Shown here in pieces: positions 3,264-5,116 of a stretch of DNA of 64,000 bases. The notes under the pieces are model-generated. The model worked only from the letters and a program-made list of their open reading frames with translations, ran no database searches and was not told the DNA's origin. Source of the stretch: Geomonas sp. RF6 (lineage in GTDB: Bacteria > Desulfobacterota > Desulfuromonadia > Geobacterales > Geobacteraceae); assembly GCF_021044625.1 (NCBI RefSeq), contig NZ_CP087999.1:4671001-4735000 (forward strand), read 5' to 3'. The stretch's first letter is position 1. Each line of letters begins with the position of its first letter. The position numbers and the translations under genes were made by a program.

Positions 3264-3298
3264 AAAAAAGCCCGCAGGATGAAGGTCCGCGGGCTTTC
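3264..3298 (-). terminator. Intrinsic terminator downstream of the rhodanese gene
   Basis: AAAGCCCGC / GCGGGCTTT stem (3267-3297), with a six-T run on the minus strand (3264-3269). It lies about 120 bp past the extended rhodanese stop; its right arm is also present in the duplicated copy at 2801. Confidence 0.65.
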
Positions 3299-3310
3299 TG
3301 ATCTGTCGTT

Positions 3311-3400
3311 GCCGGCCGGGATAAGCCGCAGGCGTTCCCGGCGTCGGCGCGAGCCGATGTGTGGACCGCCGGAAACGCTCCGCTTATTCCGGCCTACATG
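3311..3400. repeat. REP-like inverted pair (family A)
   Basis: The forward unit GGCCGGGATAAGCCGCAGGC with its GTTCCCGGC end and the inverted unit CCGGAAACGCTCCGCTTATT flank a ~25-bp spacer. It sits directly downstream of the rhodanese stop codon and matches the pair at 2820-2907. Confidence 0.85.
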
Positions 3401-3419
3401 GAACACATCGGCTCAGCTG

Positions 3420-3731
3420 CTACGGGTATCCCGCCTTCGTCCACGCGTCCACCCCTCCTTCCAGAGCCGAGAGATTCCGGTACCCTTTTTCTGCAAATTC
3501 CGCTGCCCGACCGGCAGACGAGTACTCGTCCGGTCACTTGCAGTAAAAGATGATCTCCCTCTCCTTCCCGATCTCCGGAAGCTTCGTGCTGAACTCCCCA
3601 AAGGTCATCGCCCCTTCCAGCCGCGCACGTTCGCACTTTTCCTCGTCGTCATACGCGCAGACAAGGAGCGCCTCCCCCGCCTGCACCTTCCGCCGCGCTT
3701 CTTCCGGCTTCACTCGCTTCGCTTCGGCCAT
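3420..3731 (-). CDS. Small rhodanese-domain protein with in-frame UGA, candidate selenoprotein
   Basis: Conventional translation from ATG 3731 stops at UGA 3534-3536 after 65 residues, ending IIFYCK. The frame continues past the UGA with PDEYSSAGRAAEFAEKG and SALEGGVDAWTKAGYP to TAG at 3420, which completes a standard ~103-residue single-domain rhodanese. Related small rhodaneses have a CxCPxE active loop: the first Cys is the sulfur-carrying residue and is present here (YCK), and the second is replaced by UGA, giving CKU. A hairpin suited to a bacterial SECIS starts about 15 nt after the UGA. Readthrough with selenocysteine is the simplest explanation; a truncating mutation is the alternative. 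Likely function is sulfur or selenium transfer or redox (inference). AGGAGGAAG lies ahead of the start. Confidence 0.72.
3501..3519 (-). promoter_or_regulatory. Candidate bacterial SECIS hairpin
   Basis: In the mRNA the stem CUGCC / GGCAG closes a GGUCG loop (stem 3513-3517 with 3503-3507, loop 3508-3512). The stem extends by two more pairs if one U is bulged. The loop begins 22 nt after the UGA, inside the usual bacterial spacing, and carries the GGUC seen in the E. coli fdhF element. SelB binding is not demonstrated. Confidence 0.55.
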
Positions 3732-3806
3732 TTCTTCCTCCTTTCGCAGGAATGGGTGTTGCCACCTTGAGAAGCTTACCAGAGAAAGCCGGCGTCGCCT
3801 GGCCGC

Positions 3807-3864: not shown

Positions 3865-5043
3865 TTACTCTTCCAGCTTGACGGGAACCTTTGCCTTCAG
3901 TGCGTACTTGCCACCCTTCACTTCGAGAAGTGCGAGCGGGGTCTTGATCGGCTCGCGATTTGCGCGGATGGTGATGGTGCCGGAAACGCCTTCGAAGTTC
4001 TTCGTCTGGCCAAGGGCGGTCTTGAATACTTTCGGGTCGTTGCTCTTCGCGCGCTTCATGGAGTCCGCGAGGAGCATGACGGCGTCGTAGCCCTGTGCGT
4101 CGAAGAGGCCCGGCTCGGCGCCGTTGAACTTCTTCTTGAACGCCTCGACGAATTTCGCGGTGGTCGGGGAAGCCTGCTCCGGAGAGAAGCCGAGAGCGCA
4201 CATGGAGCCTTCAACCGCGGGGCCGCCGAGCTCGATGAACTTCGGAGAGAAGAGGCCGTCGCCGCCGAACATGTTCGCCTTCAGCCCCTGCTTGCGCGCT
4301 TCCTTCATGATCAGGGCGCCTTCGGTGTAGTAGCCGGAGAAGAAGATGACGTCCGGATTCTTCGCCTTGATGTTCGTTACCTGTGCGGAGAAGTCCTTGT
4401 CGCCGTCCTTCACCTTCTCCTCGGAGACGATCTCGATCCCCTTCCCTTTTGCCGCATCGCGGAAGGTCTGGGAGAAGCCGACGCTGTAGTCGTTGTTGTC
4501 GGAAGTGATCACTGCGACTTTCTTGAAGCCGAGGTCTTTTGCGAAGTAGTCGATGCAGGCCGGGATGGCGACGCTGTCGAGCAGGGTGTCGCGGTAGATG
4601 AAGTCGCCGTTTTCCACGACGCCCGGGCCGGTGGCGCCTGCGGAGAGGAGTACCACCTGGGCTTTCTGCGCGATCGGGGCGGCAACTTTGGTGATGCCGG
4701 TGGTCGGGTCGCCGACGATGGCGACGACGCCGTCACGGGTGATGAGCTTCTGGGTGACCGAAGCGCCTTCCTGCTTGTCGCCGCGGTTGTCGGACTCGAC
4801 GATCTCGATCTTCTTGCCGTTTACGCCGCCGGCGGCATTGATCTCTTCTGCCGCCATCTTCATCCCTTCCAGGGTCGGCTTGCCGAACATCGCGACGTCG
4901 CCGGTCAGAGCACCCAGGAAGCCGATTTTTACAGTGTCGCCGCCAGCGGCGGAACCGGCACCCTCTTCCTTCTTCTTGCAGCCGAAGCTGCCTGCAGCCA
5001 TCAGGCCGACCATCAGCAGCGCTGCATATTTCTTCATCGTCAT
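3865..5043 (-). CDS. livK: Branched-chain amino-acid ABC transporter substrate-binding lipoprotein (LivK-type)
   Basis: A 392-residue periplasmic binding protein. The start at ATG 5043 is chosen because AGGAGGG lies 7 bp upstream; an upstream in-frame ATG lacks one. The signal peptide ends in a lipobox (AAGSFGC), so the mature protein is lipid-anchored at Cys22, followed by KKKEEG. The type I fold is visible: VKIGFLGALTGDVAMFG, GVVAIVGDPTTGITKVAAPI, VVLLSAGATGPGV, KKVAVITSDNNDYSVGF, NPDVIFFSGYYTEGALI and FDAQGYDAVMLLADS. It binds leucine, isoleucine, valine or a related amino acid. No livHMGF genes are nearby, so it must work with a transporter encoded elsewhere. Its own terminator follows. 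Confidence 0.92.
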   Translation of the reverse strand: MTMKKYAALLMVGLMAAGSFGCKKKEEGAGSAAGGDTVKIGFLGALTGDVAMFGKPTLEGMKMAAEEINAAGGVNGKKIEIVESDNRGDKQEGASVTQKLITRDGVVAIVGDPTTGITKVAAPIAQKAQVVLLSAGATGPGVVENGDFIYRDTLLDSVAIPACIDYFAKDLGFKKVAVITSDNNDYSVGFSQTFRDAAKGKGIEIVSEEKVKDGDKDFSAQVTNIKAKNPDVIFFSGYYTEGALIMKEARKQGLKANMFGGDGLFSPKFIELGGPAVEGSMCALGFSPEQASPTTAKFVEAFKKKFNGAEPGLFDAQGYDAVMLLADSMKRAKSNDPKVFKTALGQTKNFEGVSGTITIRANREPIKTPLALLEVKGGKYALKAKVPVKLEE

Positions 5044-5116
5044 TGGTACACCCTCCTTTTTCATGGCATGAGATACAAAAATAGACTCAACGGTACCGCA
5101 CTACGATCAGCTTCTC

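Follow-up and report, generated by a model that had tools for sequence, protein, structure and literature searches.

The window analysed here is a 64-kb stretch of the Geomonas sp. RF6 genome, and it carries on its minus strand a small gene for a rhodanese-like protein with a TGA inside its reading frame. The frame opens at an ATG (3731-3729), meets the TGA at codon 66 (3536-3534) and ends at a TAG (3422-3420). Translation through the TGA yields 103 residues with one U (MAEAKRV...EIIFYCKUPDEYSSAGRAAEF...GGVDAWTKAGYP), and this confirmed the frame that an earlier sequence-only reading had drawn (ATG 3731, UGA 3534-3536, TAG 3420). The features of the locus are listed below, where members are the homologues described in the next section.

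3420-3731, minus strand: gene for a predicted rhodanese-like selenoprotein of 103 residues, ATG to TAG with the UGA as Sec66 (from the frame, Pfam, relatives and predicted structure)
3737-3744, minus strand: Shine-Dalgarno-like sequence AAAGGAGG, 5 nt upstream of the ATG (read from the sequence)
3657-3659, minus strand: codon of Cys25 in the C-A-Y-D/E motif, about at the place of the rhodanese D-x-R (57/57 members; profile alignment with D-V-R)
3540-3542, minus strand: codon of Cys64, the rhodanese active-site Cys position (Cys in 55/57 members, predicted Sec in 2/57)
3534-3536, minus strand: in-frame UGA, predicted selenocysteine 66 (TGA in 58/58 members)
3503-3517, minus strand: SECIS-like hairpin, stem 3517-3513 with 3507-3503, loop 3512-3508 GGUCG (paired cells, covariation, codon invariance)
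3314-3399, no strand assigned: core of a dispersed repeat, about 86 bp, just downstream of the gene and outside the selenoprotein (genome matches)

The Pfam Rhodanese family (PF00581) matched the translation at 30.3 bits against a cut-off of 22.2 (E 6e-7), and the same family was matched at E <= 0.001 by all 31 rows of the alignment used for structure prediction (29 from the clade described below and two of the D-V-R type). The resulting AlphaFold2 model, built from those 31 rows with Cys in place of Sec and with a mean pLDDT of 83.9, has a rhodanese fold, and its best solved match is E. coli GlpE (1gmx; Z 15.2, rmsd 2.2, 100 aligned residues). The rhodanese identity that had been read from the sequence was thus borne out by both the family score and the predicted fold. 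A similar Shine-Dalgarno-like sequence precedes the start in many relatives. As the frame has no N-terminal extension, the protein is probably cytosolic.

The gene upstream (3865-5064, minus strand) encodes a periplasmic binding protein (PF13458), and it is followed at about 3837-3807 by a G+C-rich hairpin and then a T run. Because of this hairpin and T run, the rhodanese gene may be transcribed on its own; a pattern scan covering loops of 3-8 only called neither the hairpin with its T run nor a promoter. When ORFs were compared by eye at 17 loci, no shared neighbour gene was seen.

A direct repeat of 167 nt has two copies, 96% identical, at 2817-2983 and 3308-3474. The second copy covers the final 52 nt of the rhodanese coding sequence together with the 3' region of the gene, so that 2817-2983, downstream of the gene, partially duplicates its end. 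A query with window positions 3290-3474 gave 62 matches in the genome, most of them over 3314-3399, and some of these are clustered, with copies about 126-131 bp apart (for example, C1:283235-283952 and C1:841325-841935). A literature search on Geobacter intergenic repeats found nothing.

Conservation of the in-frame TGA among relatives

We assembled a homologue set of 58 members, from 55 genomes and one Nitrospirota contig, with 57 distinct matches at E <= 1.6e-22. Of the 147 relatives searched, 34 carry the gene, with 35 matches at E <= 3.5e-23; the best of the remaining matches stands at 2.9e-9. Across the phylum, 395 genomes were searched with a profile; up to 12 candidates were scored in each, so some may have been missed. 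This yielded 27 matches at E <= 1.6e-22 from 26 genomes, and five of those genomes had already turned up among the relatives. The Nitrospirota member came from a contig search, whose other hits were two weak ones and two on Geomonas contigs that the set already contained.

All 58 members carry TGA at the position of codon 66, 41 codons after the Cys of a C-A/G/S-Y motif, and in the strong range (E <= 1.6e-22) no match without this TGA was found in the 147 relatives or the 395 genomes of the phylum. Such agreement at one codon is therefore not chance. The sequence-only reading would have been undermined by other stops or random codons at this site in close relatives, and the TGA is kept in every one. 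That reading had also placed the UGA where related rhodaneses have a Cys. This was true of distant rhodaneses (L098, L099, L107, L108, L113) and did not extend to the protein's own clade, where no Cys66 version was found among the 58 members in the searches made.

The frame beyond the UGA is under the same constraint as the frame before it. Over 56 comparisons with the window copy, the median pN/pS was 0.42 after the UGA and 0.45 before. Decay of the downstream frame, which would likewise have spoken against a selenoprotein, was confined to two broken copies among the 58: in L117 the frame is lost right after the UGA, and in L119 it is interrupted by a TAA at a later codon.

Two members, L115 (G316:C132) and L116 (G469:C53), have TGA at both codons 64 and 66, and their predicted motif is U-x-U. 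They belong to different families of the phylum. A sequence error is possible in both, since their genomes are split over about 950 and 60 contigs and each codon is one base from a Cys codon. If they are not errors, these members suggest that both positions are redox-active.

The downstream hairpin and the selenocysteine machinery

The CUGCC/GGCAG stem with a GGUCG loop that had been noticed after the UGA was recovered at 3517-3503. It has five pairs (CUGCC-GGUCG-GGCAG), and its loop starts 21 nt downstream of the UGA. The two extra pairs that the sequence-only reading had gained through a bulged U did not hold up, as they are not conserved and their columns are paired in only 24/50 and 19/50 sequences. 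These counts come from an alignment of 50 distinct sequences drawn from 57 members, L117 being excluded, in which the five stem pairs hold in 98.4% of cells.

Within this alignment, columns 21 and 33, which are the wobble positions of codons 72 and 76, switch together from U-A to C-G in 18 of the 50 sequences, and the covariation score of the hairpin was reached by none of 500 shuffles and by no slid version. One of the five stem pairs covaries and three are invariant; two of the five hairpin measures, covarying pairs (1) and further pair types (2), were no higher than in shuffles. Two codons are fixed: Ala73 is encoded by GCC in 57/57 and Gly74 by GGT in 49/49, with zero synonymous variation, while the normalised entropy was 0.48-0.96 at the 19 other scorable four-fold codons (those with at least 40 rows sharing the residue). 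The second loop base is G in 50/50. The loop of 5 nt, the stem of 5 pairs, the position of the G and the spacing of 21 nt fall within the limits of a published bacterial SECIS model, as given in the accessible part of PMC13188914.

The consensus fold of the 50 homologues consists of the GGUCG-loop hairpin alone. Folded singly, the window's own RNA has a different minimum-free-energy structure, which does not contain this hairpin; considered as a conserved alternative, that fold was rejected, with 57.5% of its cells paired in the 50 relatives and no excess over shuffles. An Rfam scan at the hairpin returned five sub-threshold matches, none of them to a SECIS family. By eye, eleven D-V-R-type selenoproteins seem to have a hairpin at this position too, built from different stem bases.

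The sequence-only reading had also depended on the presence of the sel genes, and the Geomonas sp. RF6 genome (5.26 Mb, one contig) holds all four: selA, selB, selC and selD, each with its best match above the family cut-off. selC lies 94 bases downstream of selA. The selD match (L053, G000:C1:2535725-2536639) has one in-frame TGA, and for this reason the selD product is probably a selenoprotein itself.

Among the relatives, SelB scored above cut-off in 32 of the 34 carriers. In the remaining 23 carriers (two relatives and 21 found by the phylum search only), tRNA-Sec was above cut-off in 21 and SelB in 20, so that SelB, tRNA-Sec or both were above cut-off in 54 of the 55 carrying genomes. The one carrier with neither above cut-off is G025, which is 84% complete. 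Conversely, none of the 11 relatives that are at least 90% complete and have no SelB at E <= 1e-60 gave a strong match to the gene. SelB is widespread in this group (127/147 relatives), and the co-occurrence of gene and SelB is therefore weak evidence.

A rhodanese-fold clade with a C-A-Y motif

The NCBIfam model NF041203 (rhodanese_LYCAU) gave the gene 58.1 bits, below its cut-off of 115. The model scored above cut-off in at least 7 of the 147 relatives, at no fewer than 8 places; among the matches listed, none of these is a place of one of the 58 members, and the best-scoring clade member reaches 62.6 bits. In a tree of 75 rows and 103 columns, with 21 of its 70 inner branches open, the 56 clade rows are split off by one branch with 100/100 support and a length of 0.99. 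Five NF041203 rows (L082-L085 with D-V-R and L087 with D-A-R) fall outside, together with other rows. With a midpoint root, the clade is adjoined by four canonical rows (96/58) and not by the D-V-R selenoproteins, and the tree does not resolve its nearest rhodaneses. On these alignments, the gene belongs to a clade that is separate from the sampled NF041203 members.

At the end of the second strand, where classical rhodaneses and GlpE have D-x-R, the clade has Cys-Ala/Gly/Ser-Tyr instead, followed by Asp or Glu in 54/57 members. Cys25 is present in 57/57 and Glu69 in 56/57. How C-A-Y lines up with D-x-R is uncertain by one residue; a profile comparison sets Ala26 on the Asp and residue 28 on the Arg, and this comparison is not independent because both alignments share rows L078 and L081. 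Across loop positions 65-73 of the 57 members there is no conserved Arg or Lys. In four UGA-less rhodanese rows (L109, L110, L114, L123) an Arg follows the Cys at a distance of five residues, and in others it does not (for example, L100, L103, L104, L111 and L112). As several UGA-less rhodanese-like rows lack the Arg too, its absence is a weak argument about the substrate.

Reports of rhodanese selenoproteins go back to 2005 (PMC1088965), and such proteins are tabulated in PMC13188914 and PMC9312934, in the parts of these sources accessible to us; the kind of selenoprotein is therefore already known. The accessible part of the 2026 review PMC13188914 lists NF041203 as rhodanese form 3, with the motif C-x-U. 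Our protein resembles form 3 in its rhodanese fold and in having its predicted Sec two residues past the active-site Cys, and it resembles NF041203 in the Y-C-x-U motif, in the Glu three residues after Sec and, by eye, in a hairpin at the same place. It differs in its score (58.1 against 115 bits) and in its motif, since the five members in the tree have D-V-R or D-A-R and stand outside the C-A-Y clade; another member, L086, has D-V-D. The NF041203 rows compared are L082-L087; the published example of form 3 is TKB26178.1. Rhodanese form 1 (WP_010941598.1) is also a rhodanese-domain selenoprotein, but by the table description in PMC13188914 its motif is U-x-x-S, compared with C-x-U here.

Compared with E. 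coli GlpE (1gmx), a single-domain thiosulfate sulfurtransferase, the protein is alike in fold and length (Z 15.2 over 100 residues), but the NCBIfam GlpE model gives it 25.7 of the 102 bits needed, and the clade has C-A-Y-D/E and Sec66. The Cys-x-Cys rhodaneses have Cys at the place of the UGA (YCDC in L098 and L108, YCAC in L107, YCSC in L113); they lack the UGA and keep D-x-R, as DVR in L098, L108 and L113 and as DTR in L107. The C-A-Y clade, its missing Cys form and the U-x-U motif were absent from the accessible text of PMC1088965, PMC1794560, PMC13188914, PMC9312934, PMC5029168, PMC2398784 and PMC12013277, and neither 'UxU' nor 'LYCAU' occurs in the main text of PMC13188914 as accessible. 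The separate C-A-Y clade, the lack of a Cys form and the U-x-U members may thus be new, although an earlier description is possible.

Probable recoding of UGA66 and the proposed chemistry

We consider it very probable that UGA66 is recoded as selenocysteine in a rhodanese-fold protein. Readings in which the UGA is a true stop, the gene a pseudogene, the codon a sequencing error or the genetic code a different one were rejected on the comparative data. TGA does end ordinary frames in this DNA (with overlapping frames counted, 18 of the 40 mechanical ORFs in the window that reach 300 codons), and two of the 58 relatives are broken after the UGA, as would be expected if the product were a truncated protein of 65 residues or a decaying pseudogene. 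Such a stop is nevertheless highly improbable, given the TGA at one codon in 58/58 members, a downstream pN/pS equal to that upstream and the wobble covariation in the hairpin. The same use of TGA to end other frames argues against readthrough by a near-cognate tRNA or under another code, as do the SECIS-type hairpin and the Sec machinery in 54 of 55 carriers, and we give this explanation, in favour of which nothing was found, very little weight. Since TGA is one base from TGC and TGT, a Cys codon altered in this strain by a single mutation, or misread in sequencing, could also produce it, but the same TGA recurs in 55 genomes and the Nitrospirota contig, which leaves this account next to no probability.

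A different question is what a selenocysteine here would do. With the same recoding, Cys64 or Sec66 might carry a persulfide or perselenide and pass it to an acceptor, and the protein would then be a Sec version of a sulfurtransferase. We regard this as a real possibility, though one short of an even chance. The rhodanese fold and the active-site Cys are kept, and there are weak matches, far under cut-off, to the MoeB, MoeZ and GlpE models; the D-x-R motif is missing, however, no acceptor gene was seen adjoining, and the lack of a conserved loop Arg or Lys counts weakly in the same direction. Loss of D-x-R disfavours thiosulfate transfer in rhodaneses, and because the motif is gone here, classical thiosulfate:cyanide transfer would be less likely.

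On comparative evidence, SelB and Sec-tRNA(Sec) very probably decode UGA66, directed by the downstream hairpin, and place Sec66 two residues after the active-site Cys64 (C-x-U-P-x-E). For the chemistry we infer a C-x-Sec redox or persulfide pair, as the sequence-only reading had suggested. The Cys64/Sec66 pair may cycle between thiol/selenolate and selenenylsulfide, it may act on disulfides, persulfides or other sulfane-sulfur or selenium species, and Cys25 may serve as a third thiol; for this chemistry as a whole the chances seem to us about equal either way. The fullest form of this proposal is tentative, and we would not expect all of it to hold: a Sec-dependent, rhodanese-derived clade, not previously described, with a Cys25/Cys64/Sec66 centre, which would have left thiosulfate transfer for selenenylsulfide chemistry (diselenide chemistry in the case of the U-x-U members), with persulfides or selenium species as substrates, and which would occur in Geomonas, in relatives across the phylum and in at least one Nitrospirota bacterium.

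Truncation of the protein by conventional annotation, as had been suggested, has indirect support, because NF041203, the model that names such proteins, scores it below the cut-off. A gene finder that ends the frame at the UGA misses the Sec and the 37 residues behind it, and for methods that require a Cys/Sec pair in close homologues, none is available among the members found. If the proposal is true, the clade would be a natural case of Sec two residues from the rhodanese active-site Cys, and the role of Sec in sulfane-sulfur chemistry would become testable by one mutation in a small protein.
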